Positions 707 to 29,873 of a DNA stretch of 64,000 nucleotides are shown here, one piece after another. Made by a program: the position numbers and the translations under genes. Location: contig NC_068566.1 of assembly GCF_025698545.1 (NCBI RefSeq), positions 46,045,192 to 46,109,191 of the forward strand. Direction: 5' to 3'. The stretch is from Gossypium raimondii. Lineage: Eukaryota; Streptophyta; Magnoliopsida; Malvales; Malvaceae. Below the pieces are notes generated by a model. The model did no database searches, had not been told where the DNA came from, and saw nothing but the letters and a program-made list of their open reading frames with translations. How positions within the stretch are numbered: position 1 is the stretch's first letter; each line of letters opens with the position of its first letter.

Positions 707-1390
707 GAAAATTAAGAAACTAGTCATTCTACTTTAATGTGTTAGAATTTGTTTGTCATATACAAAATTTAAGAATTTAGTCCAGTTAGGATAAATTGTT
801 AAACATTGCCTCTCAAAACATTAACTTGAAAATCAATAGTTCAATAATTTTTGTATGAAAAGAAGAAGCAAAAGTTAGCAGTTCAATTAGCAAAAATTGA
901 TAGTTCAAGTTTATGAATTTGCCAACAAGTGGACAAACTTCTCAAGTTTTATGAAGTCCAATGACTAAAATTTGACAAATTAAAGTAGAGGGACTAGCTT
1001 TCCAATTTTTGTAAAGTAAAGGAATGAAATTCATAATAAACCCTAAATATTTTAAGTCAATCACGCTCCACAAAAAAATGGGCCGATGTTCGTTTGTTAT
1101 CAAATAATAATAAATAAAAGATTAAATTCTTATAAATTAAAGTAGAATGACTAATTTTAAATTTGTGTAAGGTAAAGAGATGAAATTCATAATTAAGCCT
1201 AAATATATTATGGCAATAACATTTTCTTAACCGCACCCTTGATTGGATTGGACGAAAAAGTGGAAAGAAAATCAATTTTAAGTGTGTTTAGTTAGAAAGA
1301 GAAGTGAGAGAAAAGAAAATAAAAAAGATATTATTTTTATTCTAATGCATAAAAATCAATTATTCCAAATTGAAATAATAGGAAAAGTGA
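707..1390. repeat. Decayed MITE-like repeat block
   Basis: No gene is seen. The block holds an imperfect direct repeat of about 80 bp (about 965-1050 and 1127-1207), each copy with a phrase like AATTAAAGTAGA. An inverted relative lies near 728-760. A further segment around 1073-1125 recurs near 11355-11420, on the other side of the MULE. This is the remains of small non-coding repeats. Confidence 0.4.
1381..1390. repeat. Left target-site duplication of the MULE
   Basis: The 10 bases GGAAAAGTGA directly precede the left end GGGTTTTTCAC of the MULE. The identical 10 bases directly follow its right end at 11146-11155. MULE insertions usually duplicate 9-11 bp, so the pair defines one insertion unit. 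Confidence 0.85.
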
Positions 1391-1637
1391 GGGTTTTTCA
1401 CAAAATAATATAAAAAATTAAAAAATTACCAAAATGTTATAACTTTTTTTTATTTACCAAAATATATATAATTTTTTTATTTACCAAAATATATCAAAAA
1501 AACTAAATAACAAAAAAAGACAAAAAAAAACCTGAACCGATTTGACAACTCCCTGGGTGGAGGGAAGCAGATTGGCAGCACCAAACAAGAGAAGCAGGTT
1601 GGCGGCACCAGTCGAGGGAACCAGGTTGGCGGCACCA
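1391..1637 (+). repeat. Left terminal inverted repeat of the MULE
   Basis: This matches the reverse complement of 10890-11145 almost throughout. The outer part is AT-rich, with the unit ATTTACCAAAATATAT repeated. The inner part carries the subterminal motif TTGGCGGCACCA in several forms (near 1571, 1599, 1627, and a variant near 1652). Repeated subterminal motifs are typical transposase-binding candidates, but that role is inference here. Confidence 0.8.
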
Positions 1638-1941
1638 GTCCTGCCAACTAGATTGGCGGCACTACTCGTGTTATAAACAGCACCTCTGTCCAGTTGAAAC
1701 AAGAAAAATCAGAAGAAAAAAAAAGAAGAGGTGCTGCGGAGAAAAAGAGAAAAAGAGAGAAAGAGAAGAGAAAAATAAGGTATTTTTTTAAAAATAATTT
1801 ATTATGTTATTGTTATTGTTTTGTATAATTTGTATTTTTTTTTGTTTTAGTTTAGTTATTAAGATTAAAATCAATAAAACTCAAATTGATAGTTTTAGTT
1901 AGGGTTTTTTAGCAAAATATTACAAAAAATAAAAATTATAT

Positions 1942-1943
<2 letters not shown>

Positions 1944-1996
<53 letters not shown>
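1944..1996. repeat. (ATT)n microsatellite
   Basis: About 17 nearly perfect ATT/TTA units lie upstream of the MULE transposase gene. It is a simple repeat likely to vary in length between accessions. Confidence 0.95.
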
Positions 1997-2228
1997 GTAA
2001 AAACTAGTATTATTTTTATAGTTAGTTATTAATAATTTTAGTTAGTATTATTTTGTATATAAAATTATTAATATTATTATTGTGTTAGTTATTAGGATTA
2101 GTGGTTAAATGGCTTTCATGTACAAAATTGAATATTGAAACATTAATTTTTTATTTAAGTTATTTATTATCCGTATGAGATGTTTTACGAGATTTTGTTT
2201 ATTTTTGATGATTAAATATTGAAGATGG

Positions 2229-4928
2229 ATGCTAAGTTTTTGTATGCGTTTATTTCAACGAGTCATCTTGACAACAAGTGTTGGATGTGTATTTGAATGT
2301 CAGCAACAAATAGCAATGAGATTTAATAGAAATGTCTCGTTTGATGAAATGAAGGCAATGATTAATGCAAAAATTTTAAGAAGTTGTGGGAGAAGGATAG
2401 TAAAAACTTGCTACAAGTTTCCAGTTTCGACAAATCCAATCAAATTCGTTGAAATGGAACTTGCAGACGATGAAGACGTTGAGACAATAGTCGATCTCTA
2501 CTGTGGGAATGGGAGTGACAAGAATGCACCGATTCACTTATTTGCTGAGTTAGCTGGTATAGATCAAAATGAAGATGTCAATGCATCTGATGAAGAACAC
2601 GGAGCTCAAGAACCGTGGATGGTGGCTCCAATATCATACGTTGATAGTGAATCGACTATGGGTAGGATGGGTATCGACCTGAATATTACACACGATGTTG
2701 ATATGGTTGGTGGTGAAGAAGAATGTGGTTACGAAGAAGAAGGTGGTGGCGATCATTGGGATGAAGAGGTCGACAGTGACGGTGATCCCGATGTGGACGA
2801 TGTACCTGATGATATCGACGATGTACCTGATGATATCGACGATGAAGACATTAACGCTTCTTCGATCGGGGAGCAGATGCGGCATATTTTGATACACAAT
2901 AATCCTGGGCCACACATGTCGCTCATAAACCCCGACGCAGCGTATGTAGCTGAGTTCCCAGAGTACCCTGAAATAGTTCATCGTCACGGGCTGGCCGTAA
3001 CATCTGATGATGAGGAGTTATTCATATGCCAGAGATTCAGCTGTAAAGAAGAGTGCGTATATGCCATCAAACGGTACAACATGAATATATCAGTTGATTA
3101 TAAAGTCCTAGTGTCTACTCCGACAATATATGTTGGGGAGTGTTGGAAGGCAGCCGAAGGCTGCAATTGGCGGGTGCGAGCTGCATTCATTAAAAGTTCT
3201 TAGATGTGGGGGATACGAAAATTTGTTAGTCCTCATACATGCACATCAACACGTATGACAGAAGATCATGGAAAACTTGATTCAAAAATAATATGTACGT
3301 GTATCATGCCAATGGTGAAGGACATGCCGACCATTAAAGTTTCGGTACTGATTGTCAAAATGCAAGCACGATTCCAGTATCGAATCTCATATCGGAAGGC
3401 ATGGATTGCTAAACAAATGGCGATGGAGCAACTGTATGGGGATTACGATTCATCGTATAACGAGCTTCAAGGTTGGATAGCTGCTATGCGGGAGTATGTA
3501 CCGGGGACTGTGATTGAGTTGCAGACAAGACCATATTACGGCCCGGACGGCCAGTTACAGTCAATAAAAAAGATTTTCCATCGGATGTTCTGGACGTTCG
3601 ATCCATGTGTGCGGGCATTTCCCCACTGCAAGCCACTTGTGCAGGTAGATGGGACCTGGCTGTATGGAAAATATACACAGATCCTACTTATTGCGGTTGC
3701 TCAAGACGGCAACAGAAACGTGCTCCCGATAGCATTTGCTATCGTAGATAAAGAGAACATGGAGTCTTGGGAATTCTTCCTCACAAACCTGTGGAGGTAT
3801 GTTATTAGCAACGATAACATTTGCATCATCTCTGATAGAGGGAATGGTTTAATTGCAGCAATCAGGCGTTCCGGTGTGCCGTGGAGATCCTTTTACTACA
3901 TCCGTCACATTGCGGCTAACTTCCACAAAGATTACAAGAATGCAGACTGGAAGAGACAAGTCGTGGCAATGGGTAAATGATAACCTTATATTTTCAATAT
4001 AAGTTGTAATGTTTCATGTTATCGAGTTACTAGAACTTATTTTTCTTAATACGTATGCAGCGTACGAGTTAGAGCCACATATGTTCCGGCAAAAAATGAT
4101 CCGACTTGAGAGTGACATGGAGGGGCAGACAAACACATCTTTTCGACAATGGTTGGGCACAATGGATCCGTGGCAATGGGCTCAAAGTCTTGAAGAGGGC
4201 TTTCGTTATGGCCAAATGACCACAAACTTAGTCGAAGGGATCAACGCTATTTTGTTAAAAACATGTCATCTTCCGATTGCATCTGTATTTTCTGCTACTT
4301 TCTACAGGTGGCTACTTTGATGCCAAGAATGGGTCAGCAGCAAGTCGACCAGATTGAGGCGGGACACGTGTTTGTCGAATATGTCAGGGATACAATGGTC
4401 GCAAACCATCGGTTGGCGAGGTCAATGAATGTAGAAATATATTCATGACGACTGGAAACATTTCGAGTTACTGAAAGCATCAGTCGTCGACCTAGTATAC
4501 CAACTAGGTCCTACGGAGTTGATCTCTGGAACCGACAGTGCGAGTGCAGAAGGTTCGAAACACTTCATTATCATTGTGCGCATGTCGTGGCAGCGTGTGC
4601 TAAAGTTAACGTCAATGTTGAACAATATGTCGATAATGTGTACACGCTGGAGCGCACCTTGCATGTCTGGGAAAATGAGTTCCTCGTCTTGCCTGACCTA
4701 TCTACGTGGGAGGTGCCTCTGACGACTTTCGAGCTTCTCCCAGACAGAGGGCTGCGGAGGAATCCGAGAGGTCGTCCGCAGTCAAGCAGAATCCGTAATG
4801 AAATGGAAATCATGGAGAAGTCTGACGGAAAGCGTTGTGGAATATGCAGGTTAAGTGGTCATAGTCGGAATAAATGCCCTAACCGAAACTTTCATGTTGG
4901 ACAGTCGTCCCGATCGGGTCGTAATTGA
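2229..4928 (+). pseudogene. MuDR-type (MULE) transposase, broken
   Basis: The reading frame opens with an ATG and a PB1-like N-terminus (about residues 30-95). An acidic Asp/Glu region follows, with a duplicated 21-bp unit near 2798-2839. Next comes a MuDR-type zinc DNA-binding region (about 268-320). After an in-frame TAG at 3201-3203 the same frame continues into the MULE DDE domain, with the DGTWLYGKY segment near 3648. A plausible 88-bp intron (3973-4060, GT...AG) restores the frame into AYELEP. A one-base loss near 4311 shifts the frame, and a TGA stands at 4446-4448. The frame then runs open to 4928 through a SWIM finger (CECRRF...CAH, near 4540-4585) and a CCHC knuckle (CGIC...H...C) near 4837-4880. 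The gene would be functional only without two stops and one frameshift, so it is dead. It acts in the nucleus on the element's own ends in active relatives. Confidence 0.88.
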
Positions 4929-5174
4929 CCTAATATTGTAAAATTTTTATGTGTAATGATAAAAAAAGTATACAAATGATTATGATTACATTGTATCCAA
5001 ATTAAGTTATAAAATAGTATATGGCGTTTAGAATTATTAATATTATATCGAAAATGGAGGCATATAACCTTAAATTAAGCTTTAATATAATGCAACTTTA
5101 AAATAATTAAATTGGTAAAAAGAAATTGAACAATAAGCACAATAACTAAAACTAGAATAATTAAATTAGAATAA

Positions 5175-7221
5175 TTAAATTGATACAAAAAGTACAAACG
5201 TGTTAATGTACAAACATGTGCCATACACCCTAAAATTGATGGTTCGATGGTGTAGTCCTAGGGTATACCTATTCGGAGGTCGACAATCACGTTCGGGTGC
5301 CCGATGACGACCGACATTATCATTTAGCGCAGTGGGGTGTAGTAAAATAGAGAGGAAATCATTTTGAGCAGGTCCCTCGTTCGGCGGTGACGAACTTGAT
5401 GCACCTGAGGGAGTCCCATAATGCTGCGGATATGGGCCGAGCGAGTAGGATCCGAATAGTTTGAAGTCGTATGCATATTCTAGCCCTGAGAAGATCGAAA
5501 AATTGTCAGTGCCTAACAAATCCAGATGATAGCTATCTGAACCGACAAATCCAGATTGTTCCAGATCTGGCTGGGGCTCCTGCTCGGGCTCTGGTGGTTC
5601 TGGAGAATAATATGCCATGGGATTCGGATCATGCTGGGCCACTGTGGCCGATCCCCCATGTCGCTGCATGTGCGGGGCGATTACAATCGACTGGCCTCCG
5701 AATAAATATGGCTTCCCGCAACTATAGTACCATTGCATATACTCTAATGATGGTTGCGAGTCGGTAGCCATAACCATCTGAAGTCTTCGACGAAATCGAT
5801 CGTTCCACAGCGCTACAAATTACCGGTGCTTAATTCCCCAATCCATCATCAATTTTCCTCTCTTATTCTTGCCGTGAACTTCTCCCACCTCACACGGCGG
5901 ATCCGGGATAGGTTGGATGCAGCCAAACTGTCGTAGCACCCGATCCTTGTGATACCACTCGACCATGTTGAAATTTATAATTAGTGCGTTAGTGCACCAT
6001 ATGTACGAATGCACGTACGCAGACGAGGGTACCACGACTATAATTTCTGGCGTTCGGTACGGCGTTCGGTACGGCGTCCATATAAACTGCATGATTAATA
6101 ACATGGTTATAATTAGCCATAACGTGCGCGTAAGATATAGAAAGTAAGATGTCATGAATATTAGAATAGCATCTTACCCCATCTCGGGCATACTGTTCAA
6201 TCATGAGGCGGTATAGCGGGACATTGTACGACTTCTCGATACCCGGACGAGCACTCCACCTACAAAAAACAAATATAGGGTTTAGAGTTGGTAACATTAG
6301 TCAATATATTATGACTACAAATAATGAGAAGTTATATTTTATCACATGTTCAGCAGTGGATAAACATACGGTTGGTGTCTAACCGATGCCAAAAATGGCA
6401 TCCGATACAGCGCCCAGGACTGCAGCAGTGAGAGGCATCCGCCAATGTCGCGAACTTTCGGATCTGTCGCCCGACAAAGCTCTCGATACAAGACTGCTAG
6501 CACGGCTGAGCCCCAGCTATAGGAGCTAACAGTGGACAAGTCAGCTAACAGGGGCAAGTACATCAAATGTACCTTGTCGTTGCTTGCATCAGGCATGATT
6601 TCTCCCTCTATGATATACATGATGTACGCTCGAGCAGCGCACATCAACTCGCCTTCAGTGGCTGTCGCTGATAATTGTCCATACTTGGCTTTCAGCCATG
6701 TAAATTGTACGCCCGAAAAATATGACTCACCGTCTCCTGGTGAGTCTCCTAGAAGCTGATAGCAAAGTGCATCCGGATTGGTAAATGTAGATAATCCTGT
6801 TACGGGACTCCCGTCAATTGAGAGTCCAAGCTGCAACGCTACATCCTCCAAGGTCACCGTGCACTCCCCACACGGAAAATGAAAAGTGTGGGTCTCCGGG
6901 CGCCACCGCTTCACTAGCGCAGATAATAAATCAAAGCGCAAGACGGTGTACCGGATCTGTGCTACGGACCTAAATCCGGCTAGCTCTAAGTACGGCATCA
7001 ACCGTGCATCCGGAGTATTCTTCAAAACACTCACACGGCCCCTTAAAACTCGGTACGAGTCCTGATAGTTTTAAATTACAGAAAAAATTTTACGATAACA
7101 TTATTTCTTTGTACGTCTATCCTTTTTAAATAAATAGAACCCGTGATTAATAAATAATAACTCATACCGCGTTATTAACCGCATCAGATATGTGGCTTTT
7201 GCTGCTAATCAATGAAGCCAT
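5175..7221 (-). pseudogene. Plant mobile domain (MAIN/MAIL-like) gene carried by the MULE, broken
   Basis: Four exons can be modelled: 7221-7168 (starts MASLISSK), 7061-6346, 6259-6178, and 6086 to about 5175, all with GT-AG boundaries. The protein has the plant mobile domain pattern, for example RWRPETHTFHFPCGE, then LEDVALQLGL, then a DRVLRQFG segment in exon 4. This is the domain of MAIN, MAIL1 and the plant 'phosphatase 7 long form' proteins, which act in gene silencing and genome integrity. An in-frame TAA at 5820-5822 interrupts exon 4, although the frame continues open for 200 further codons with a Pro/Glu-rich tail. A 12-bp tandem duplication (about 6052-6075) adds a TPYR repeat. Convergent orientation to the transposase and the position between the TIRs show that it travels with the element. 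Its role in transposition is unknown. Confidence 0.8.
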
Positions 7222-8283
7222 TACGATGCCTGCAAGTTGAAAAAAAAGTTAGTAAAAAACTCTTACTTCGGCCATTTGTTCATATTTTTTTCTCCGCATT
7301 TTATTACTTTAAAAAATATCTTCATTTCTAATTTTATAATTTTACATAATGTTTTAAATTTATTAATTTAGTGTGTTTTAAAATTAATTTAGTGTAAAAA
7401 CCATTATCCCCGCCATTTACTCGTATTATTTAGTGTATTTAGTGTAAAATTAATTTATAAATTTAGTGTGTTTTTTTCTGTTTTTTTTTTTTTGTTTTTA
7501 CTTTTTTGATATATTTTGGTAAATAAAAAAATTATATATATTTTGGTAAATAAAAAAGTTATAATATTTTGGTAATTTTTATTTTTTATGTTATTTTTTA
7601 TAAAACCCATAATAAAACATTACAAAATAATAAAATATTAAAAATACAAAAATATTATATATATTTTTATTGACCAAAATAAAAAATACTAAAACGGGTT
7701 TTTATTTGGTGTAAGAAAAAATCATTATCCCCGCCATTTGCTCGTATTTTTTCTCGATTTTTATTACTTTCAATAAAAATATATCTTTTTATTTTATTAC
7801 TTTATATTATTTCATTACATTTTTTAAAATATTTGTATTAACTATTTCTCAATTTTTAAAAGTTAGTAATACACTTTTATTTTGGCCATTTGTTCGTATT
7901 TTCTCTCCGCATTTTATTATTTTAAAAATATCGTCATTTTAAATTTTATAATTTTATACTTTTTCAGTGCATTATGTTTAAAATTTATTAAAGATATAAT
8001 TTTTTTCGCATTTTCTTACTTTCGTGAATATATAATTTTCGTTTTTTCTTTTCGTATTTTTGTTTTCTTAAATATATTTCTTTATCATTTTACTTTTAAT
8101 GTTATTTTCCTAACAAAACTAATTTCAACATCCTAAGTCAATTTCATAAAAAATTCTAATCAACATATAATGTACATACCATGAATTTTTTCATGCTAAA
8201 TATATCTCAAAATTATATATCCTAAATAAATTAATAAAATACGTAAAATGTACTTAACATTATTTTTAACACACAAATATTAC
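7222..8283. other. Non-coding AT-rich MULE interior with internal repeats
   Basis: No gene is seen. Four diverged copies of a unit containing GCCATTTGCTCGTATTTT start near 7264, 7396, 7724 and 7874, each followed by a T-rich stretch. Positions 7480-7608 are another copy of the outer right terminus of the element (the GATATATTTTGGTAAATAAA repeats, ending in AAAACCC). The open frame at 7882-8136 is low-complexity Phe/Ile-rich sequence without any recognisable protein signature. Confidence 0.6.
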
Positions 8284-8772
8284 AAAATCTTAAATTAATA
8301 ATAAAATTACCTTATTTTCTTTTTTTTCCTTGCTTTTCTTCTTCTTCTTTCATTTTTTTTCTCTTCTCCTTTCCTTTTCTTTCCTAATTTTTCTTTCTTT
8401 CCTCCCCTTTCCTTTTCTTTCCTTCTTTTTCTTTCTTTCCTCTCCTTTCCTTTTCCTTCTTTTTCTTTCTTCCTTTCTTTCTTCTTCTTCCCCTCTCCTT
8501 CTTCCCCCACCAACCGACCACCCTTAAATTCAAGGGTGGTGCATATGAGGATCCTCCACCGGTGCCGCCAACAGGATCCCTTGTTTGGTGCCGCCAACCC
8601 GCTTCCCTCCACCTGTGGAGTTGTCAAATCGATTCGAGTTTTTTTTGTTTTTTATTTTTTTATTTTTTATTTTTTGATATATTTTGGTAAATAAAAAATT
8701 ATATATTTTTGGTAAATAAAAAAGTTATAACATTTTGGTAATTTTTATTTTTATATTATTTTGTAAAAACCC
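8284..8772 (-). repeat. Internal copy of the MULE right terminal region
   Basis: This is nearly collinear with 10623-11145. It shares the start (AAAATCTTAAATTAATAAT), a long polypyrimidine tract, the phrase AAATTCAAGGGTGGT, GGTGCCGCCAAC motifs and the AT-rich end ...GTAAAAACCC. No copy of the flanking GGAAAAGTGA follows it, so it is not the true outer end of the insertion. The Lys/Glu-rich minus-strand frame at 8307-8627 is a product of the polypyrimidine tract and not a gene. Confidence 0.8.
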
Positions 8773-10091
8773 CATGATTCTCTTAAAATTATAAATTTTA
8801 ATTTAGATTTTTATAACTTATAAAATTTTAAATTAGTAAAAGTAAAATTACATTTTAGTCTTCTAAAATGATAAAATAATTTATCTCTTTAAAATTATAA
8901 AGATATAGTGTATTAAAATATACAATTTAATTCCACCCGGAAAGATTTTCGACTCCACCACGTCCACATGGACATGAAAGTGCTTTTTTTTAATCATGGA
9001 GAAAAATTAATGAGGAAAATAATAACATTTGAATAATTATTTTAGGAAGTGATTATGTTTTGATATTAATATTAGTTTATAGTATGTTATATATGTATAT
9101 ATATCATATATGTTAGAAAATTTGGTTAAGAAAATAATTATTTTAGGTATAGCGAAAGTTTAAGAATTTTTTAAAATCGGTTCAGTTTAGAAATCAATTT
9201 TGTTGCATAGTGAAAAATAAAAAATAAAAAATTGAGCAGTTGTGTTATTTATAGAAATAAACCTTAACCAAATTTGTATCTATGCTTTGAGTAAGGTGAC
9301 TTGATTTGTTCTCTGGCTTTCGACCAACACTGTCTTCTCTACTATTCTCAAATTTCAATTTGCTTAGAGTGTGCGCTCTAATTTCACAAATCGATTGCAC
9401 AAAATGAAAAATTATTAATTTTCCGGTGAGGATAATTAATTATCTATTTTAGGAACAAAACCCGATAAACTGAGCTCTCAAGAAAATAACATTTAACTTA
9501 GTATAAATTCTAACTATTTTTTGGTAGACTAGCGGTGCTCAATGTTGTGTGTTTATGACTTGAGCTATGTTCCTTTATATAGTGAAGTTGCAAGAATTTT
9601 GGTTGAATAAGAGTTAAATAAATAGTATTATTTAGTAGGAAAATGAAAATATTTCTTATTAAGAATACCTAGGGGCCGCGACAAGTGACACCTAGTATCT
9701 ATGACTAGTAATTAAATGAATATACGACACATAGTAATGCTAGACGAATGACCTATGGCCATGTTTTTTTTTTATCTATCGTGTAATGCTAATAAAATGA
9801 TATCATTTACCTATTATTGGATTAGGAATTCCGCTGTGAATGATGCTACATACTACAAAAGTCGTATACCTAACGCACTAGCTCCAAGTATACAAATGAA
9901 TATACTATACTCTTAGGGCACCAGATCCAACATACCCTTCCCTCACTTGAAGGAGTATTTGGAGTGCTCAGAAGTTGTTGGAATCTAATATTGAATGGTA
10001 GATTAGTACGAGGGAGGGTGTTTCCATTTGGCAGAACCACTGGTTACTGGGTTCAAGTAATTGCAATATTCAAGACTCGAATGTCAAGGTT
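8773..10091. other. Unassigned AT-rich sequence between two MULE right termini
   Basis: No gene is seen. Positions 8780-8950 resemble a dispersed AT-rich repeat also found in the HPR3 introns and near 54470-54610 (phrases such as TACAATTTAATTCC). The remainder has no recognisable protein or repeat end. It lies inside the outer target-site duplication, so it moved with the element or was inserted later. Confidence 0.4.
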
Positions 10092-10622
10092 TGTAACACC
10101 CCAAACCCGACCTAGATGTTATTGCCGAATCTGGCGTGTCACATTGAAGTGTTTTTCGAAAACCATATTTTCATTAAAAACCTTTCTTGAAATTTTAAAC
10201 TTCTTGTCATTTAAAACTTGTATAAAATCTTAGTTTGCGTTTGTTCATTTTCGAGCTAGGTTTATTAAAGAAAAGTTGTTACCTTCAAACCTTATTGTTG
10301 CAGAAGTTTAATTTAAACAAATGATTTACGAAAATGTGATATTTAAAAATTGAGGTGCGAAAATGTAGTGTTAGAAAACAGTTATTGTTTTGGAAAACTG
10401 TGTTCTACTTCTAGCAAATATAAATCCCAATCAGATAAAATCCCAAATTTAAACACCAGAAATTATTGAGGCCTTTTTACAACCCGAATCAAAATCAAAT
10501 TTCTTGAGTAAATGAGCAAAACAGAATAAAATATGTGCAGTCGTATGGCCCTCTCTGAGTCCCTTGTAGCTCCGAACCGTCTAACACTGGAGATTACCTG
10601 AAAGATTAAGAATGGGGAGAGT
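10092..10622 (+). repeat. LTR-like retroelement fragment
   Basis: It starts with TGTAACACCCCAAACCCGAC, an LTR-like start I associate with cotton Ty3-gypsy elements, and ends where the next MULE terminal copy begins (AAAATCTTAAATT). No matching second LTR, CA end or target-site duplication is found, so it is a truncated fragment at best. Family assignment is from recall only. Confidence 0.35.
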
Positions 10623-11145
10623 TCACGAAAATCTTAAATTAATAATAAAAATTACCTTATTTTCTTTTTTTTCCTTCCTTTTTCTTCTTCTTCTTTCTTT
10701 TTTTTTTCTCTTCTCCTTTCCTTTTCTTTCCTTATTTTTCTTTCTTTCCTCCCCTCCCCTTTCCTTTTCTTTCCTTCTTTTTCTTTCTTTCCTCTCCTTT
10801 CCTTTTCCTTCTTTTTCTTTCTTCCTTTCTTTCTTCTTCTTCCCCTCTCCTTCTTCCCCCCACCAACCGACCACCCTTATATTCAAGGGTGGTGCCGCCA
10901 ACAGGGTTGCCTCAACTGGTGCCGCCAACCTGCTTCCCTTGTTTGGTACCGCCAACTTGCTTCCCTCCACTCAGGGAGTTGTTAAATCGGTTCAGGTTTT
11001 TTTTTCTGTCTTTTTTTGTTTTGTTTTTTAATTTTTTTGATATATTTTGGTAAATAAAAAAATTATATATTTTTTGGTAAATAAAAAAAAGTTATAACAT
11101 TTTGATAATTTTTTATTTTTTTATATTATTTTTGTAAAAAAACCC
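10623..11145 (-). repeat. Right terminal region of the MULE including its TIR
   Basis: An inner polypyrimidine tract (about 10660-10860) leads into the true right TIR at 10890-11145, the inverted match of 1391-1637. The TIR carries several GGTGCCGCCAAC motifs and ends ...AAAAAAACCC, followed at once by the duplicated GGAAAAGTGA. The two long frames here (10612-11031 plus, 10623-10970 minus) are low-complexity artefacts. Confidence 0.85.
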
Positions 11146-11155
11146 GGAAAAGTGA
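11146..11155. repeat. Right target-site duplication of the MULE
   Basis: GGAAAAGTGA is identical to 1381-1390 and abuts the right TIR. The perfect match suggests either a fairly recent insertion or chance preservation. Confidence 0.85.
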
Positions 11156-12608
11156 AGATGAGATAAATGTGTTTTTATTTTATTTTTTCTACCTTAACCA
11201 GTGGTCCAAGGTTCGATCATCGCTTTGGGTATGAAACAACTTTAAAATTCATGGCCAACACCTACCTTATTAATAGACCTATAGAATGTAAAGATTTAAT
11301 TATTGAGCTCGCGCCCGTAAACATACTCGCAAAAAATGGGTCAATGCTTTTTCTTTTTGGAAAATGGGCCGATGTTCATTTTTCTTCAAAGAATGAATAA
11401 ATAAATAAAAGCTTAATACTAAATTTTAATTAGATTTTGGAAAGCACTAAGAAAAAAAAAAGAACTCAGCTTTAAATCTCAATCTTTACTGAAAATAGTT
11501 GTTGATATTCATTATGACAATTCGAATTTCGAGTTAGTAAAATTCCTTAATTTTTTATATAATTGTTATAAAATTTAATGATTTTTATAAATTTCCTTTG
11601 CAATTTATTGGTATTTGAATTTGCACATTTTTATCTTGATATTTAAATTTTTAGGGGTCTATTTTCGTTTCTGAACTTGATATTAAATTTTTATTATTAT
11701 CCAAATTGATACCTAAACATGCCAAGCCTTATAAAATTGTCCTCATATGCTAACTATATTAAGTTTTTATAAGGTAGCGAAATAATCAATGTATAACCAA
11801 CATGTGGCATATGACATGAAATTTTTTTGTATTTTAAATTTTAATTACATTTAGTTTAATTTTTATTTTAACTTAATGAAATTCTTTATATCTTGGTTTT
11901 TAAAACTATTGTTTTCTTCTTAGTTAAGTTCAAGACATAATTTTTGAACACATGTTTCTTTTGATACTAATGAAATTCTAGTGAAATTGAGGGCCATGCT
12001 TTTAAGGATATGGTCCTTTTTGAATCATTCCTATCATTAATGGTCAAAGTAATCTCAGCAATAAAATTTGAGTATATTGTTTAGTGAAACAAAAGAAACG
12101 CTAAATAATGGTAATTATTCTTATCATTAAATTCCATGTAATCTGTCACATATTGGTCATGCATTGAAATTTCTATCCCCTCATATAACAATTTGAAAGG
12201 TTTAGGTACCAAATTGGACCAAGGAGATTAAGTGCCAATTAAGAAGAAAAATGCCAAGTTTAGATACCAAATTGAGAAAAAAAGCTTGAGCATCAAAGTA
12301 AAAAAAAAAGTATCAAATTTAAGTATCAAATATTATATTAAACATTTACATTTATACCTTTGGTAATATTTTAAAATTATATATAATTATTCCCTCCTAC
12401 ATTCATTTACTATAATTTTAGCCATAAATTATTAAAAGCTGAAAACTTTCTTCAACAAAACTTATAAAAGAAATTCAATTTAACCAAGAATACCCACATC
12501 TTGTCTCCAGCAATAAGAGTATGGCATTCAATTATTTAACCAAATCTTTATCCTTTCTTCATTGAGCATTTGTCAATGCCTTAAATTACAGCAAAAGAAT
12601 TGAAGGGT
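11156..12608. other. Intergenic AT-rich sequence
   Basis: No gene is seen. A short segment at about 11355-11420 (AAAATGGGCCGATGTTC and what follows) is related to 1073-1125. Near 11205 a phrase resembling a tRNA B box (GGTTCGATCATCG) may be a SINE scrap. The rest is ordinary AT-rich spacer downstream of the HPR3-like copy A. Confidence 0.5.
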
Positions 12609-13978
12609 TCATTCATTTGAGACTACTGATACCAAAGGTTTATTCGAAAAGAAGGCTTTTAAGTTGCCAACAGTCAGCTGTAGCACAGCTTCAAAGCCTT
12701 CTGGTGTTCCGCCAGCACTGTGTGGAGACAACACGACATTATCAAGTCCAAATAGCTCCTTGGGGACATTAGGCTCATTTTCATACACATCAAGACCAGC
12801 ACCACCAATTTCTCCTCCCACTAAACACTGCACTAATTCCTTCTCGTTGATCAACGAGCCACGCCCGACGTTGATTATCACTCCTTCCTTCCCTAATGCT
12901 ACCATGACATCCTTATTGACCAAGTGGTAAGTTTCCTTTGTCAGTGCACAACAAAGAACAAGAACATCACTGTTTGCAGCAAGGTCCCGGACATTAGCAT
13001 AGAATGGAAATGGAACAGATTGCTTCTTGTTTCTTGAGGTGTAGGCAATGGTGCAGCCAAAGGCTGAGAGCCTCTTTGCAACTTCAGAACCAATGCTTCC
13101 CAATCCCACAATCCCTACACGCTTTCCCCCTAGCTGTGATTGCATATTTTGGTGTTAAATGCTAGTCATAGGTAGTTATGAAGAATAAGTCATTTCAATC
13201 AACAAATTCCTAAAATTTCATAAACTATAAGCCTAATGTGCTATAGCAATGTTACATCATGTTGCATTCTGCTCTGAGTTGTCCTTTATTTGCAGAAACC
13301 ATTATGAAAGTGAAGATCTATACTATAAACCTAAAAAAGAAAGATAGCCCATTTAAGATCAAGAAACAGACTTTTATTTAGATTTCTTTTCATGAACCTT
13401 GGAATATCTAAAGGCTTAAATTTCCACAAGACCAAAATATCCTAAACAAATACCTTAATTTTCACAACTGGATTCCTTCACTTATATGTTAAATTCAGTT
13501 ACTCTAAGGTTTTTACCTTAAAACCAAGAGGGTAGGTTTCCTTAACAGGCCACATCCGACCACGAACAAATCTATCAGCAGCAGAGATTCTTCTAAGGAC
13601 ATCGATCAACAACCCAACAGCACAATCCGCTACATCCTCTGCGAAGGCAGAGCTAGCATTAGTAACAACGATGCCTCGGCTTCGACAAGCAGGGAGGTCT
13701 ATATGATCAAGGCCAGCACTTGTAGCCACTATCAGCTCCAAAGCGGGCAGACGGTCGAGAAACTCGGCGGAAACTAGGGTGGGGCCCATAGTCATGAGAG
13801 CTCTTATGGAGGGAGCATGACGGGCCAGAAAGGAGTCGTACGGCTCAGGCGACTCGTAAGGGTCCAGGACATGGAATTGAGAACGTAAATGGTCTCCAAA
13901 AGGAAGGATGAATGAAGGTGGACGATGAAGGAAGACTACAGGTAGCTCTTCGGGTTGTTGGGTTTCTTTGTCGGCCAT
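12609..13978 (-). CDS. HPR3: Glyoxylate/hydroxypyruvate reductase HPR3-like, copy A
   Basis: A D-isomer 2-hydroxyacid dehydrogenase of 328 residues. HPR3-type enzymes reduce hydroxypyruvate and glyoxylate, backing up the photorespiratory pathway outside the peroxisome. Two exons: 13978-13517 (starts MADKETQQ) and 13133-12609, phase-0 intron of 383 bp with GT-AG ends. Exon 1 encodes the substrate-domain half, including ATSAGLDHIDL. Exon 2 opens with the Rossmann motif GIVGLGSIG (about 161-169). The presumed catalytic residues are Arg245 (in VGRGSL), Glu274 (ENEP) and His292 (SPH). The YTSR segment after beta-2 has an Arg that usually favours NADPH. The upstream in-frame ATG at 14020 would add 14 residues, but the MADKE start is shared by all copies. 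It differs from copies B and C near the C-terminus (SPHSAGGTPEG). It could also act on hydroxyphenylpyruvate. Confidence 0.9.
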
Positions 13979-15055
13979 GGTTAGGTAGGAGAGGATTAAG
14001 TGATGACTCCCAAGTTTCAAAAGAAAAAAAACAGTATAGTTTTGTTTCGTATTATGTGGTCAATATCATCGCGTTCATTTATTGAATTTTAGGTAGGGAT
14101 GAAATTATATAAAATTCTGATTCCATTTTATTCCTATTGATAAATTATATTTTTCTTCTTAATTTTAGTATTTTTAATTAAAATTTTTATATTATTAATT
14201 AAATTTAAATTTTTAGGAAAAAATTAAAATTAGAAAGAAAAATCGCGTTTCTATTGAAAATGAATAGGAATGGCATAGAATTACAATCTCATGCAATCTT
14301 TTCTAATTAAGGTGAATAGTTGATGCAAAGTTAGTTTTTTTTAATCAAAATAATAATTTAAAAATATTTTAACTATTTTTTAAACATAATTATTTGTTAT
14401 TATACAATATAATTGTGTTAGACAGAATAGTAACTAATAATAATAATATAAAGGCATTCGTCAAGATGATTCAAGTGCCTTCAAAGAGGTTAGCAGCGGT
14501 TCTACTATTGACTTAGTAAGTAATACTCTCGAAGGGTGTGTGTTTTTAAAATTTATGTAATTTTAGTTAAATCTCTTCTGCCGTTTTGCTATTAACTTAA
14601 TAAGCATTACTCTCAAAGGGTGTGTATTAGAATTTTATATAATTTTATTCCGTTTTAGTTAAATTTACCTATAATTTTAAAATTTATCGTTTTCCTTTTT
14701 TTATTATGTATACTATTATAGTAGTTTTCTAATTCATGCTTATTTGATCAAAATTCATGGATATTTGACTAAAACAATTTCTTAATGAACCTACAAAATA
14801 TGAAAGATTAATCATTGCACTCGCTCAAGTAGATATATATATTAAAAAAAAAGGTTTTGAAATTTTCTAATGCTTCGATGATTCTGCAGACAATTTAACA
14901 AAGATACCAACATCTTAGTTTCGAGTAACAACAAAGATACCAACATCCTGATTTCCAGTAACCAAGGTATGGATTTCAGTTATTTAACCAAATCTTTATC
15001 CTTTCTTCATTGAGCATTTGTCAATGCTTTACACTAAAGCAAAAGAATGAATGGT
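13979..15055. other. Intergenic spacer between HPR3-like copies A and B
   Basis: AT-rich, with no gene seen. A degenerate direct repeat of about 90 bp (about 14500-14560 and 14583-14645, phrases CTCGAAGGGTGTGTG / CTCAAAGGGTGTGTA) is present. From about 14899 the sequence is shared with the 3' flank of copy C (from about 23094), marking the left border of the B/C duplication unit. Confidence 0.5.
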
Positions 15056-17101
15056 TCATTCATTTGAGACTACTGATACCAAAGGTTTATTGGAAAAGAA
15101 GGCCTTTAAGTTGACAACAATCAGCTGGTCCAAAGCTTCAAAGGATTCTGGAGTCATGACAGCGCAGTGTGGAGACAACACGACATTATCAAGTCCAAAT
15201 AGCTCCTTAGGGACATTAGGCTCGTTTTCATACACATCAAGACCAGCACCACCCATTTCTCCCCCCACCAAACACTGCACTAATTCCTTCTCGTTGATCA
15301 ACGAGCCACGCCCGACGTTGATTATCACTCCATCCTTCCCTAATGCTACCATGACATCCTTATTGATCATGTGGTAAGTTTCCTTTGTCAGTGCAAAACA
15401 AAGAACGAGAACATCACTATTTGCAGCAAGGTCCCGGACATTAGCATAGAATGGAAATGAAACAGATTGCTTCTTGTTTCTTGAGGTGTAGGCAATGGTG
15501 CAGCCAAAGGCTAAGAGCCTCTTTGCAACTTCAGAACCAATGCTTCCCAAGCCCACAATCCCTACTCGCTTACCACCTAGCTGCAATTCCAAGTTTAGAA
15601 CAGTGTTTTCGTAAGGACCAGATGGGATGATCTAGTGCCTTGTAAAAGCAAAACGATGACATATTTGTTAAACTAAGCAGACAGATGGATAAAAGGAGGA
15701 AATGGAAGTTTGAAATAATCTGATAATATGAATTCTGATGCACTTTATTGAATGAATAATAAAACTTTTATATAGGTTGAATTACAACTGAAAAATCACT
15801 AAAAAATAAGAACAAAGCTGATACGTAAATCACTAGAAATATCAACTAATATGATACTCCTAAAGCCTAGCAACAATAAATTTTGACTGAATCAATAACT
15901 TTATTCAAACCAGCAAACTAATAACTCTAACAATATTTTGGTGTTTTCCATTGTTAGGCCAAGCCAATAGTTGTTTTGGAATGGTATGCGATATTTATGG
16001 TAAATTTGTACTTTGACCCTTAAAAATAATAAAATTTTGATTAAATCTTTTAAAAATTATAAAGATATAAACTATTAAAACAATAAAATTATTTTTTTAC
16101 TATAGTAAAAATATACTATTTAATTCCGGTCAAAAAAAATTTCCAACCTCAGCCACCGACACTATTTACCCCAAAAGTTCATTGCCAAAAAGAATGGAAA
16201 AAGAAAATTGCCCATTTAAGATCAAGAAACAACTTTGTGTTATTTAGATTTGATAAATCCAATTATGTTGTCTATGCAAATATTGTTGAATATCTGAAGT
16301 CAATCAACAACATCAAAATTTCATCAACTGGATTCCTTCACTTATATGATAAATTCTGTTACTCAAGGAATCAACACCAGATAAAAATAAACGTAAGTGG
16401 AGCAGCGTCACCTAAAATGGTAAATTTTTAATTTAAATTTATTATAATTTATAAAATTTTAAATTAATAATGATAAAATTTTATTTTGATTCTTTAAAAT
16501 TATAAAAATTTAATTTAATCCTTTAAAAATATTAAGATATAAATTATTAAAATAATAGAATTTGATTCCCGCATAAAAAAAAAATATTCATCCTCAGCCA
16601 CTGATAATAAAGAAAACAAACGTTTACCTTAAAACCAAGAGGGTAGTTTTCTTTAACAGGCCACAGCCGACCACGAACAAATCTATCAGCAGCAGAGATT
16701 CTTCTCAGCACATCGATCAACAACCCAACAGCACAATCCGCTACATCCTCTGCGAAGGCTAAGCTAGCATTAGTAACAACGATGCCTCGGCTCCAACAAG
16801 CAGGGAGGTCTATATGATTAAGGCCAGCACTTGTTGCCACTATCAGCTCCAAAAAAGGCAGTCGCTCGAGAAACTCGGCGGAAACTGGAGAAGGGCCGGT
16901 AGCCATGAGGACTCTTATGAAGGGAGCATGACGAGCAAGAAAGGAGTCATATGGTTCAGGCGATTCGTGAGGGTCTAGCATATGGAATTGAGAACGTAAC
17001 TGGTCTCTGAAAGAAGAGCCGGAAGGAATCTTGAATGAAGGTAGACGATGAACCAGCACTATAGGTAGCTCTTCGGGTTGTTGTGGTTCTTTGTCAGCCA
17101 T
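15056..17101 (-). CDS. HPR3: Glyoxylate/hydroxypyruvate reductase HPR3-like, copy B
   Basis: Two exons, 17101-16628 (MADKEPQQ start) and 15580-15056, give 332 residues with GT-AG splice sites and a phase-0 intron. The family motifs are intact: NAD(P) loop GIVGLGSIG (about 165-173), Arg249 in VGRGSL, Glu278 in ENEP and His296 in SPHC. The enzyme should reduce hydroxypyruvate and glyoxylate with NAD(P)H, like copy A. It is far closer to copy C than to A, in both exons and in the flanks. Its intron (1047 bp) is longer than that of C mainly because of a 267-bp solo LTR. No stop or frameshift is seen. Whether it is expressed cannot be judged from sequence. Confidence 0.9.
15666..15932 (-). mobile_element. 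267-bp solo LTR in the intron of HPR3-like copy B
   Basis: A TG...CA-bounded segment (TGTTAAACTAAG ... ACTCTAACA) is flanked by the direct repeat ATATT (15661-15665 and 15933-15937). The paralogous introns of copies C (about 23856) and D (about 14) have the single uninterrupted site ATATTTTG, so the insertion is precise. On the minus strand it reads like a Copia-type LTR, with a TATA-like CTATATAAAAG. No internal region or second LTR remains, consistent with LTR-LTR recombination. Confidence 0.85.
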
Positions 17102-17705
17102 CGTTGGGGTTGGAGAGGATTCCCTGTTAACTCCAAATAATAAGAACAACAGCTTAGTTTTGTTTCTTATTATGCGGTCGATATGATTTCTGGTTTTTTT
17201 TTTTCATTATATCATTGCATTTATTTAGTATTTTATAAGGAAAAACCAGAAAGGTTTGGATCTTAGATTAAATGTTAATAGAAAATTTGATACTAATGCG
17301 ACGACTTTTTTGTCGGATCATGAATTCATTATTTAATATTATTGGACACTAATTGTGTTACACAGATCGTGAATAATATTTTTAAAATGTCATCGTATGT
17401 ATGTTAAAAAATTGGGTAAATTTCTTAAAATAGTCACTTTTGTTTAGTTTAAGGTTACATTTTAGTCATTTATGTTTGAAATGTTACGTTTTAGTCACTT
17501 ACGTTATCGTGTTGTAACATTTTAGTCACTGAATCGTTAATTGTCATTAACGATATAACGGTAAGCTAACGTGACATGTTAAATCATTATTTCAAACGAA
17601 AATTTTAGGTTAAATTCTACAATTGCTCCCCATATTTTTTGTCATTTTGAGCAATTTAATTTTTTTCTTTTATGGTCTTTTAGCTTTCCCTTTTTTTTAA
17701 ATTTT
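17102..17705. repeat. Upstream region of HPR3-like copy B with a solo MULE-like arm
   Basis: No gene is seen. From about 17414 the sequence reads GGGTAAATTTCTTAAAATAG with repeated TTTTAGTCAC phrases, the usual look of terminal repeats of non-autonomous elements such as that at 59486-60854. A small palindrome (CGTTAATTGTCATTAACG) lies near 17535. No opposite arm was found, so it is called a fragment. Confidence 0.4.
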
Positions 17706-21831: not shown

Positions 21832-23252
21832 AAAACACACAAAAGTAACATGAAACATACAAAAGTAACTATTTATACTTTGTACACTTTAAAAAACTTT
21901 ATTAATAAATCATGAGTTTTTTTTTTAACAATAGGCCATGATTTCTTTACGGTGTCACTACATGAATGGAATTAAAAAAATTATGTTCAATGAAAAATAT
22001 ATTCACTTTTTTAAAATAATTTGCCATGATATTTAGTAACCTTAATTTACCACCCACGATGAAAAAAATGGTTAAATTTATGATGAAGACAAAATTAAGT
22101 ACAAAATTATAAACTCTTCACTGCAAAATGAAAATAGGACTAGTGTTAGACTAGTAATTAGTTAATAGTTAATAAGAAGGATAAATACTAAAATTATAAG
22201 TAAATTTTGATCTAATGTGCAATATTATACATAAACTTTGATTTTGTAAATGAAGTTTTGATTTGATTCAATTTTGACAAATCATTAACACATTATCGAA
22301 TTAGCACCGCTTTACGTTGATATATTGCATACACAAACAATTACATTAATTTGATATGAAAATAAATGTACGTATCCGTTTCTTTAAATGTCTACAATTG
22401 GATCAAATCAAAATTGATCATGTATAAATATGAATCATAATTCAAGTTTCATTTGTATAATTGCACCAAATCAAATTTATGTATCAAATTACACATTGGA
22501 CCACAGTTCATGTATAAATTTTGATACTTATTCCAAAAAATATAGGGTAAACTACACCCAAAGTCACTAAACTATTAGTAAATTTATATTTTGATCACTC
22601 AACTTCAAAAGCTACAAAATAATCATCGAACAAAATACTCTTGATGATGATCTTCTTTTAATTTTACCCTTTAAACTCTCTCTCTCTTTAAGAATGTGGA
22701 GTGGACACTAGCTATGTTTTTAATGCAGTGTTAATTCCTTATTATGATTTTAGTTTATTCTTGTTATTGTGTTAATATTGTGTTATTTGTTGTTTTTGTC
22801 TTCTTTTTGAATTAAAAAACATTGTAATCGATTTTTTCAGTATCTTAAATTTATTTTTAACAAAAGAATAAATAAGTAAAAATTCAATTAATTCGGTTAA
22901 CCATCCGATTTAATCGAAATAATTTCATTAGTAATATTCCTTCGATTAAGGACTAAATTTTTTATCACATAATTAATGGACGAAGTTGGCAACCACCACA
23001 CTACATATCGTGATTGATAATATTTTTAAAATGTCATGGTAGACAAATTATATATATTTATAAACTTTATTACTAGAGTCCCCACATGAATGAAAGATAC
23101 CAACATCTTAGTTTCGAGTAACAACAAAGATACCAACGTCCTGATTTCCAGTAACCAAGGTATGGATTTCAGTTATTTAACCAAATCTTTATCCTTTCTT
23201 CATTGAGCATTTGTCAATGCTTTACATTAATTAAAGCAAAAGAATGAATGGT
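21832..23252. other. Intergenic spacer with a solo TIR arm
   Basis: No gene is seen. At about 22545-22640 the phrase GGGTAAACTACACCCAAAGT and the following text match the ends of the TIR element at 28270-35054, but no opposite end is present. From about 23094 the sequence is shared with the 3' flank of HPR3-like copy B. Confidence 0.5.
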
Positions 23253-25035
23253 TCATTCATTTGAGACTACTGATACCAAAGGTTTATTGGAAAAGAAGGC
23301 TTTTAAGTTGACAACAATCAGCTGGTCCAAAGCTTCAAAGGATTCTGGAGTCATGACAGCGCAGTGTGGAGACAACACGACATTATCAAGTCCAAATAGC
23401 TCCCTTGGGACATTAGGCTCATTTTCATACACATCAAGACCAGCACCACCCATTTCTCCCCACACCAAACACTGCACTAATTCCTTCTCGTTGATCAACG
23501 AGCCACGCCCGACGTTGATTATCACTCCATCCTTCCCTAATGCTACCATGACATCCTTATTGATCATGTGGTAAGTTTCCTTTGTCAGTGCACAGCAAAG
23601 AACGAGAACATCACTATTTGCAGCAAGGTCCCGGACATTAGCATAGAATGGAAATGAAACAGATTGCTTCTTGTTTCTTGAGGTGTAGGCAATGGTGCAG
23701 CCAAAGGCTAAGAGCCTCTTTGCAACTTCAGAACCAATGCTTCCCAAGCCCACAATCCCTACTCGCTTATCACCTAGCTGCAATTCCAAGTTTAGAACAG
23801 TGTTTTCGTAAGGACCAAACGGGATGATCTAGTGCCTTGTAAAAGCAAAACGATGACATATTTTGATGTTTAATGCACTCTGCCATTGTTAGGCCAAGCC
23901 AACAGCTGTTTTGGAATGGTATGCAATATTTATGGTAAATTTACACTTTGACCCCTAAAATTGATAAAATTTTAATTTAATCTTTTAAAAATTATAAATA
24001 TATAAACTATTAAAACAATAAAATTATTTTTTTTACTATCATAAAAATATACAATTTAATTCCGGTCAAAAAAAATTCCAAACCTCAGCCACAGACACTA
24101 TTTTCCCCAAAAGTTCATTGCCAGAAAGAATGGAAAAAGAAAATTGCCCATTTAAGATCAAGAAACAACTTGGTGTTATTTAGATTTGATAAATCCAATT
24201 ATGTTGTCTATGCAAATATTGTTGAATATCTGAAGTCAATCAACAACATCAAAATTTCATCAACTGGATTCCTTCACTTATATGTTAAATTCTGCTACTC
24301 AAGGAATCAACAACCAGATAAAAAAGAAGTAAGTGGAGTAGCCGCAACTAAAATGGTAAATTTTTAATTTAGATCTATTATAATTTATAAAATTTTAAAT
24401 TAATAATGATAAAATTTTATTTTTGTTTTTTAGAATAATAAAAATTTAATTTAACCCTTTAAAAATATTAAGATATATATTATTAAAATAATAAAATTTG
24501 ATTCCCGCCTAAAAAAAATATTCAGCCTCAGCCACTGATAATAAAGACAACAAACGTTTACCTTAAAACCAAGAGGGTAGTTTTCTTTAACTGGCCACAG
24601 CCGACCACGAACAAATCTATCAGCAGCAGAGATTCTTCTCAGCACATCGATCAACAACCCAACAGCACAATCCGCTACATCCTCTGCGAAGGCTAAGCTA
24701 ACATTAGTAACAACGATGCCTCGGCTCCAACAAGCAGGGAGGTCTATATGATTAAGGCCAGCACTTGTTGCCACTATCAGCTCCAAAACAGGCAGTCGCT
24801 CGAGAAACTCGGCGGAAATTGGAGAATAGCCGATAGTCATGAGAACTCTTATGAAGGGAGCATGACGGGCAAGAAAGGAGTCATATGGTTCAGGCGATTC
24901 GTGAGGGTCTAGCATATGGAATTGAGAACGTAACTGATCTCTGAAAGAAGGGTCTAAAGGAATTTCGTATGACGGTAGACGATGAACCAGGACTATAGGT
25001 AGCTCTTTAGGTTGTTGTGGTTCTTTGTCCGCCAT
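23253..25035 (-). CDS. HPR3: Glyoxylate/hydroxypyruvate reductase HPR3-like, copy C
   Basis: Two exons, 25035-24562 (MADKEPQQPKEL start) and 23777-23253, give 332 residues with a 784-bp phase-0 intron. The fold is that of a D-2-hydroxyacid dehydrogenase, with GIVGLGSIG near 165-173, Arg249, Glu278 and His296 all present. It is a near-duplicate of copy B; the shared unit runs from about 23094 to 25099 against 14899-17163. One difference lies in a normally glycine-rich turn, where CLVGGEMGG of copy B reads CLVWGEMGG here, which might affect folding. The intron keeps the empty site for the solo LTR found in copy B. The predicted role is cytosolic or plastidic reduction of hydroxypyruvate and glyoxylate. 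Confidence 0.9.
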
Positions 25036-26216
25036 CGTTGGGGTAGGAGAGGATTCAGTGTTATCTCCAAATAATAATAAAAACAGCTTAGTTTTGTCAT
25101 TAAATCATGGCTTATATTTTTGTCGGCTCATGAAAAGCATATATAAAAGATGAGCTTCTTTTTTTTTTATGTAAAAGTGTTTTTTCCTGGAAAATAATAA
25201 ACAACTGATATTATTTTAGAAAAATTTACTACTTAAAAAAAAATACTTTTTGGTTTTAACTTCTCCATCTGCCAAAAGTGCTTTTGGATTCTATTTATAT
25301 TTTTAACCTTTGTTTTCTACCAAAATTTTAATATTTATATTTAGTATATAAATATTATCCCTTTTAAAACTTTAATTTAAATATATGTAATATTTTAATT
25401 TGTTAGGTTTATATTTTCTATGTTATGTTAATATCTAATATGAGTTATATATTCAAATACATTTTAAAATAAAATAATACAAATATGTTAAAAGCATTAA
25501 TTAAAAATAAAAATAATTTTAAAATAATACAATTGTGTCAATATCTAATTAGAAATATTTAATTATTATATTTAAATATTTAAATATAGTTTATATATTC
25601 TAATTAAATTTAATAAATAATTAATATTAATTACTTAGAAATATTTAAAATTAACAATATATATTAAAATATTAACAATAAGTTATGATAAATTATTTTT
25701 TATAATTTTGCTAAAATATCATAATATTAACTAATTTGAACATTATTTAAATACATATTTGTTACTTTATAATATCATATCTAAAATGAACATTTTATTT
25801 CTCAAAAGCATCTTTTGACAGCAATACCAAACACTCAAATTTTTCAAAAGTACTTCTCAAAAGCACTTCTCAAAAGTACTTTTCCACAGCACTTTTCAAA
25901 AATACTTTTCAAAAGCAATGAAGAACTGGCCCTTAATATTATTGAACACTAATGAAGTTAACAATTGAGTTTGAAATTTTAAATATGAAAATTGAGGATG
26001 AAATTCTTAAAAATAGAAATAGGAAGACTGAATTTTAAATATAGAAAAAGTAAAACTACTTAAAACATATTTTAGCCTTTTTAATTTACCTCCATCACAC
26101 TTATATGTAACCATCCACAGAAGAAAAAAGAACACTTTTTCTTTCCCTCTAAAACAAAAGAGAAAATTTTAGTCTTTGAGCTTAAAGCTATCTTTATCGC
26201 AATCCCAAAACACCCA
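25036..26216. other. Intergenic sequence upstream of the translocator gene
   Basis: No gene is seen. The segment 25847-25925 repeats units like TCAAAAGCACTT and TCAAAAGTACTT. Related inverted phrases (AAAGTGCTTTTGG) lie near 25275, so 25130-25930 may be an old TIR element. The rest is AT-rich and includes the divergent promoter region between HPR3-like copy C (-) and the translocator (+). Confidence 0.45.
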
Positions 26217-28269: not shown

Positions 28270-28356
28270 GGTAACTACACTCAAAGGTCACTAAATTATT
28301 AGTACTTTTATGTTTTGGTCATTTAACTTCAAAAAGTTACAAAATTATTAAACTAT

Positions 28357-29873
28357 TGATTAAATGCTAAAATTACATATTTTATGTAATTAAATTGGTT
28401 AATTTATGAGAATGCACCACTAACTTTGCCATATTTATTGAATTTTGTGCAGGAATGCAATTTGGGGGCTAAATAGAAGAAAAAGAGAACAATTGGGCCA
28501 AATTAAAGAAAGAAGCAAAGAAGGAGGGCCAAAGTAGAATTTTTCCTATTTTAATTAGCTGAAAATTTTGTTGATTTAGTGGGGGAGATTATTTTGGGAT
28601 ATTTTTGGTCATGGAATATTTTATTTTTCCTTGATTTTCTAGACTAGTTGGCTCCAAAATTAGTAAATCCTCTAGTATAAATAGAGCATGTATTGTTCAT
28701 CATTTCATCAATCAAAAAATATTTTAGCTTTTGTCTTTTAATTCTCTCCTTTCTCACGTGGCTTTGTTATTTCTTAGCTTGCTTTCCTTCAATTTTCATT
28801 AGTTCCAGTAGCCTACCATCCATTTCACCTTTATTTTCAACTTTTCACAAATTTATTTATTGTCTTTAGTTTCTTTAACTTTTAATTCCTAAAAACTTCC
28901 AGCTTTTACTACTTTCCATTTACAACACCTTTTTCAAATTCTTTTTTTTCAACCACCCCCATACTCAATCACATTACCCACCTTTTCACCCATCTACCTT
29001 AATTAATTTTTCAAATACCAACATGTCCCAAACCTTAGCCAACTAAACCCATTTTCAGCTTTAGGCCGAAATTAACCTCGTCAAAACCCGTGAGTTACGA
29101 ACCCGAGCCATTTAACTCCTAAAATTCCAGTACTTATTACTTCTCCGGATTAAGAGTATGATTTTGTCAGCTCATAAAGTCAGATCAACACTAAGTCAAA
29201 AAAACGTCGTTTGATTTGGTGTGATTAGACATATAGTTGGAATTCTGAATAGAACGTTTCTAATCAATTTTCTGTGAACACATTGGCGTGCCAAGTGGAG
29301 GCTGCTGTTTGGTTCCGTCAAGGGAAGTAGTAACTGGATTTAAATGTCCCACGCGGTTGAGGGCATTGGTTCGAGCTAGGCTCTTCTAGAACGCAAAGCT
29401 GCCGGAGTTTTAAATCACGAACGTTTCGTGGTTGTTCGATCGGTAAGAGTTAGTTATTGGACGTTCCATAACTAATTTACACAAGGAAGAGTTGGTGTCT
29501 GAGGCGTCCTTGGTAGCTATAACTAGCTTATTGGAAAAGAAGAGTTCATCCAATTTCGAGGATCGGTTCAAAGACGAGGAAAATTCGTGCCTAAAGCTGA
29601 GCTCATTCTAATTAATTTTTCTTAATATTTATTTCATAGTTTTTATTATTCTGTTTTCAACTTTTACTTTTTACGTTATTTTTCTGTTTATTTCAGGTTT
29701 TCAAATTTTTATCCCCCCGAACGTCTTGGGCACGACAGCTGCCCCGACATTAATCTGGTCAAGCAAGTGACAATTTACAGTAAACCAGTCTCTGAGGGAT
29801 CGACCCTACTCCCTATACTGCATAATTTGCAAACTAAGGCGTAGGTTTATATTGGTGGATTCGACTCCCATCA
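28357..29873 (+). repeat. 5' LTR
   Basis: 1517 bp, TG...CA bounded, paired with 33099-34608. A promoter-like TATAAATAGAG occurs near 28676-28686, just upstream of a transcript-start-like CATCATTTCATC. The end is followed by four bases and then the primer-binding site. Confidence 0.92.

Follow-up and report, generated by a model that had tools for sequence, protein, structure and literature searches.

MULEs with extra TIRs have been described by Ferguson and Jiang (2012; PMC3310237), and in the excerpts of their paper that underlie the present comparison the target site duplication (TSD) of such elements is found at the outermost ends alone. Some of these MULEs have one additional "solo" TIR, located either at one end or inside, and in one solo-TIR element a transposase-like sequence is interrupted by stops and frameshifts. 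The mechanism is left open in the same excerpts, the models being slippage, recombination, nested insertion with loss of the TSD, and acquisition. In the macrotransposons and composite insertions of maize Ac, ends that belong to different elements lying near one another can cooperate in moving the DNA between them; as presented in the excerpts of PMC9910405, these events were seen genetically and involve an 8-bp TSD. MULEs that carry a plant mobile domain (PMD) are also known (Ikeda et al., 2017; PMC5418596), and the parts of that study used here concern PMD-transposase fusions in grasses and Amborella.

The element described here lies in a stretch of 64,000 nucleotides from Gossypium raimondii (assembly GCF_025698545.1, contig NC_068566.1, positions 46,045,192 to 46,109,191 of the forward strand), which is referred to as the window and whose coordinates are used throughout. 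It is a broken, decayed MULE of a rare, previously described type, with spare right ends and foreign DNA. It is like the multi-TIR MULEs of Ferguson and Jiang in having a TSD of 9–11 bp at its outer ends only and inner TIRs without a TSD, and like one of their solo-TIR elements in its broken transposase; it differs from the MULEs in the excerpts of PMC3310237 in having two extra right-type ends, the full ones being separated by 1.85 kb of foreign DNA, and in the PMD gene that accompanies the transposase. As in those excerpts, the additional inner TIRs are similar over at least 100 bp (8284-8772 and 7472-7608), but two TIRs on one end were sought there less than 600 bp apart, whereas the distance here, from 8772 to 10628, is 1,855 bp. 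The carriage of DNA between ends recalls the Ac composite insertions, although here the element is a MULE and the event is inferred from one copy, and the association of a MULE with a PMD is shared with the elements of Ikeda et al., although here the PMD is encoded by a separate, convergent gene. The element was not found in the MULE, macrotransposition, and Pack-MULE literature that was searched, cotton repeat-library annotations being outside the reach of such searches, and exact matches to one TIR pattern numbered 0 in each of the viral and prokaryote collections.

Results

Each outer end of the element is flanked by the 10-bp direct repeat GGAAAAGTGA, the left copy adjoining GGG (1391-1393) and the right copy adjoining CCC (11143-11145), with no gap (Table 1). 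The match is exact, and 10/10 identity between any two positions 3–20 kb apart has a frequency in this window of 1.2e-5 (10,661/892,355,500); GGAAAAGTGA is present three times in the window as compared with 0.20 expected, the third copy being at 39141-39150. Because this exact duplication is located at the outermost ends, 1391-11145 (9,755 bp) is delimited as a single MULE insertion, within which there are two further right-type ends. In the same 10-mer test, identity with the left flank is 3/10 at 7608 and 1/10 at 8772, so that these ends have no matching flank, which agrees with the lack of a TSD at inner TIRs in the excerpts of PMC3310237. The first-pass annotation had paired 1391 with 11145 through the 10-bp duplication, had described copies of the right terminus at 7608 and 8772 without such a flank, and had proposed a composite element with other right ends inside one target duplication; the exact match at both edges, with its low chance rate, the identities at the inner ends, and the combination of the TSD with the end alignments bear out these claims. 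The unit either arrived whole or arrived as a simpler element with later internal alteration. The features by which a TIR-type MULE is recognized were all found: a TSD of 9–11 bp (10 bp and exact), long TIRs of 100–500 bp (about 250 bp alignable between left and right at 89.8%, with a right-end repeat of about 500 bp), and a MULE transposase, the reading frame of which is broken.

Table 1. Features of the MULE insertion and its flanks, in window coordinates
Feature	Position	Strand	Evidence and remarks
Left TSD copy, 10 bp	1381..1390		Identical to 11146-11155
Left TIR, part aligning well to right ends	1391..1637	+	Inverse 89.8% to 11144-10890 and 85.6% to 8772-8553 (gaps counted)
Possible remnant of inner left tip, weak	1902..1938	+	nhmmer E 2.1, no better than reversed-window control
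Decayed MULE transposase gene, in pieces	2229..4928	+	Pfam DBD_Tnp_Mut, MULE, and SWIM domains
Plant mobile domain (PMD) gene, at least 2 pieces	5820..7034	-	PF10536 E 2.3e-51 (6342-7034) and 4.7e-11 (5820-6155)
Innermost right-type terminus, truncated, 137 bp	7472..7608	-	91% to 8639-8772; 87.4% over 143 columns to left end
Degenerate left-type tip facing 7608 end, moderate support	7611..7694	+	Inverse alignment 7621-7681 / 7539-7600
Second set of ~150-bp subterminal repeats	7701..7991	+	Echoes set at 7244-7431
Middle right terminus, full length, 487 bp	8284..8772	-	88.7% to 10628-11140 over 513 columns (gaps counted); 94% without gaps
Non-MULE block between two right ends	8773..10627		Starts directly after intact 8772 terminus
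Outer right terminus, full length, TSD-paired	10628..11145	-	Alignments; TSD directly after
Right TSD copy	11146..11155		Identical to 1381-1390

The insertion lies among tandem gene copies at 1-705, 12482-14069, 14900-17163, and 23093-25097; the first is a partial dehydrogenase copy, truncated by the edge of the window, in which similarity ends at 705, and the copy at 12482-14069, the only one scanned with Pfam, is a D-2-hydroxyacid dehydrogenase. A search of the window for an empty site among these paralogous copies, made with the two flanks joined, gave only the flanks themselves and scraps of 40 and 25 bp. A 56-bp similarity (80%) between 1075-1125 and 11361-11416 flanks the insertion on both sides and may be a local repeat of the target site, older than the insertion. 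Elsewhere in the window, direct repeats of 98% identity (28356-29873 and 33098-34608) flank a gag gene (29920-31773), probably as parts of a young LTR retrotransposon. A protein with DUF659 and a BED finger, which we take to be probably a hAT-type transposase or a relative, is encoded at 55856-57622 on the + strand. The - strand at 51630-51773 contains a MIR7502 microRNA precursor hairpin (Rfam RF04225, 87 bits), from a family that is presumably from cotton.

Within the element, the transposase gene is identified by PF10551 (E 1.8e-13) and SWIM (E 1.7e-4) matches, and the match to PF03108 (DBD_Tnp_Mut, E 5.3e-4) scores 20 bits, below the 25-bit cut-off. The gene is interrupted by an in-frame stop (3201-3203), and two of its stretches, 4003-4320 and 4449-4928, are in different reading frames. 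The PMD gene is convergent to the transposase gene and reads as a separate gene, not as a fusion; its position resembles that of the second gene of MuDR.

The left end aligns with 11145 at 337 bits (255 columns, 89.8%), with 8772 at 239 bits (229 columns, 85.6%), and with 7608 at 169 bits (143 columns, 87.4%); on these alignments its better partner is the far right end, 11145, not 8772. A third 27-bp unit is common to the left end and 11145 and is degraded in 8772 in the profile alignment. Weaker similarity of the left TIR continues onward, with 1759-1801 matching 10677-10635 at a score reached by 2/1000 single-base shuffles. The 8772 and 11145 ends have about 490–515 bp in common, and in the right-specific part, beyond the outer 225 bp, only 8/264 aligned sites are mismatched; the two are therefore close family members. 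The outer part differs at 20/224 sites, but this contrast between inner and outer parts (Fisher P = 0.006) is not taken as proof of a mosaic, because there is an unstable 27-bp repeat in the outer part and low-complexity purine sequence in the inner part. The 7608 end does not include the right-specific inner half found in both 8772 and 11145. Of the three copies of the right terminus that had been claimed, 8772 and 11145 are thus full length, but 7608 is truncated.

In three-way columns (n = 216), there are 17 differences between the left end and 11145, 24 between the left end and 8772, and 26 between 8772 and 11145; changes found in one end only number 15 for 8772, 8 for 11145, and 6 for the left end, and all three differ in 3. 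The comparison of 15 with 8 is not significant (sign test, P = 0.21), and the excess in 8772 could reflect relaxed constraint on an inner end. When all four tips are compared over the outer 135 columns, the left end is equally distant from 8772 and 11145, at 12 differences each, and the tree of the four tips is star-like, with 3 informative sites that are mutually conflicting. The alignment and tree of termini suggested in the first-pass annotation therefore place the left end nearer to 11145 by bits, but the tree gives no resolution. A tip profile built from the ends at 1391, 7608, 8772, and 11145 matches these four by construction (E 1.2e-80 to 1.7e-27, with starts at 1391, 11144, 8773, and 7608); across the window it detected no significant fifth end, the best other match having E 0.27 as compared with E 0.12 for the best in the reversed-window control.

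Two stretches inside the element resemble left-type tips. Around the first, 1892-1960 by itself scores 45, whereas the best of 1000 shuffles scores 40, and the region 1800-2220 scores 48, which 2/1000 shuffles reach; an inner left tip at 1902 was rejected as not significant in the window-wide profile. At the second, the inverse alignment listed in Table 1 has E 9e-13, with the reversed control reaching 8e-7, and 7609-7700 scores 67 versus a maximum of 51 in 1000 shuffles, whereas the window-wide tip profile gives just E 0.54 for 7643-7680. The subterminal repeats that follow match those before the 7608 end (7244-7366 versus 7858-7991, 79%, E 3e-31; 7384-7431 versus 7701-7752, 83%, E 4e-11). 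Because these repeats echo the set at 7244-7431 and are adjacent to the left-type tip, the arrangement suggests that 7609-8772 is either a relic of a second, small MULE or a right end that was duplicated.

Between the two full right ends, comparison inside the window supports the view that the block is non-MULE DNA beyond an intact right terminus, as no MULE part was found in it by that comparison; this is in keeping with the earlier claim of unrelated DNA beyond an earlier right end. The boundary of 10622 given previously has to be moved, since homology of the two full right ends begins at 10628 and the intervening block is therefore 8773-10627. A dispersed non-MULE repeat starts within 12 bp of the 8772 terminus: 8784-8934 is part of an AT-rich repeat that matches 24349-24505 and 16413-16569 at 81–83%, and 8792-8920 matches 496-628 at 81–83%, with partial weaker matches elsewhere in the window. 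Copies of this repeat lie mostly between the two large exon-like frames of the neighbouring gene copies and partly near 54435. With low complexity filtered and a threshold of E 0.001, the remainder of the block matches nothing else in the window apart from a 28-bp scrap. A Pfam scan of five of the 37 listed reading frames of the block gave no accepted domain, the sole match being PspB at E 0.076, far below the cut-off, and LINE or LTR proteins were rejected on the basis of these five frames. The LTR-like scrap of the first-pass annotation, from about 10094, was proposed on the general form of LTR starts and is putative, as is any LINE or LTR label within the block.

An ordinary insertion with its own target duplication, which the first-pass annotation had named as the finding that would speak against it, was looked for at the edges of the block and not found. 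There were no direct repeats of at least 8 bp near the edges; 8755-8800 and 10600-10650 have 7 common runs of 6–7 bp, none base-exact at the edges; and when repeats as short as 4 bp were allowed, within 4 bases of the 8773 and 10627 edges, AAAA alone was found. An insertion of this kind was rejected, as neither search found an edge duplication. The AAAATC at the junction at 10628 looks like microhomology and is a candidate for it.

Discussion

The reading that we slightly favor over read-through transposition is that the extra right end and the foreign block were acquired together in the repair of a break, by copying of the right end and flank of a related element; we give this a probability of about 0.42, and it is accordingly tentative. 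The original terminal pair would have been 1391 and 11145. The element would have been interrupted about 520 bp in from the right terminus, by a double-strand break or by the gap of a transposition, and a related element elsewhere in the genome would have been copied in the repair. Copying would have passed through the right end of the relative (8284-8772) and on into its flank (8773-10627), and end joining at 10628 would then have linked the new DNA to the right end that survived. The truncated 7608 end may have been left by an earlier, similar accretion, and the element would since have decayed. This reading is favored because the left end best matches the outermost right end and, more weakly, because the outer right end breaks off near the limit of left-end similarity (10628 as compared with 10635, the weak match that 2/1000 shuffles equal in score). 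An intact 8772 terminus followed so closely by a dispersed repeat is what is expected if the flank of a donor was copied. The exact TSD is at the outermost pair only and the block has no TSD of its own, both of which favor repair copying, as do the 27-bp unit that the left end has in common with 11145 and the close relationship of the right-specific halves of 8772 and 11145. The nearness of the left end to 11145 leans weakly toward 1391 and 11145 being the original pair and the inner end a later addition, as opposed to read-through. Against repair copying stand the nonsignificant difference between 15 and 8 unique changes and the star-like tree.

Read-through, or macrotransposition, is somewhat unlikely by comparison. 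At an earlier site with related MULEs close together, transposase would have paired the first left end with the last right end, so that all DNA between them moved; ordinary flanking DNA (1.85 kb) would have travelled along as cargo, and a new 10-bp TSD would have formed at the new site. The bracketing of the whole unit by one TSD, the several right ends in the same orientation, the left-type tip of moderate support beside the 7608 end, as where elements abut, and the opening of the block like ordinary flank with a repeat are all consistent with this, and maize Ac macrotransposons that excise and reinsert are documented in the excerpts of PMC9910405. However, the last element must previously have lost everything but its right 518 bp, the left end is closest to neither inner right end over the full TIR, and over the outer 135 columns it ties 8772 with 11145. 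Ac is a hAT element, and our literature search found no work joining Mutator-like elements with macrotransposition.

It is improbable that slippage or unequal exchange duplicated the right end in tandem, a model proposed for tandem-TIR MULEs, and that other elements then inserted between the two copies and decayed: the 8772 and 11145 ends are close to each other in sequence and slippage is among the models in the excerpts of PMC3310237, but the edges of the block are without a TSD, and slippage leaves unexplained why 1.85 kb of foreign DNA should start exactly at an intact terminus. That the TSD match arose by chance in a cluster of independent MULE fragments, a possibility raised earlier to which the third copy of GGAAAAGTGA might lend something, is very improbable and was rejected, because 10/10 identity at two given positions has the low frequency noted above and the match coincides to the base with the ends of the TIR pair that aligns best.

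If read-through were true, macrotransposition of MULEs would be a route for the capture of flanking DNA distinct from the internal acquisition of Pack-MULEs. The gain of extra TIRs and outside DNA by MULEs is called unresolved in the excerpts of PMC3310237, and one decayed element by itself does not decide between read-through, TIR swapping, and later rearrangement, the three origins offered in the first-pass annotation. Because the outer TSD of this copy is exact and an inner terminus has stayed intact next to the foreign DNA, comparison with related copies could separate read-through from capture by repair.
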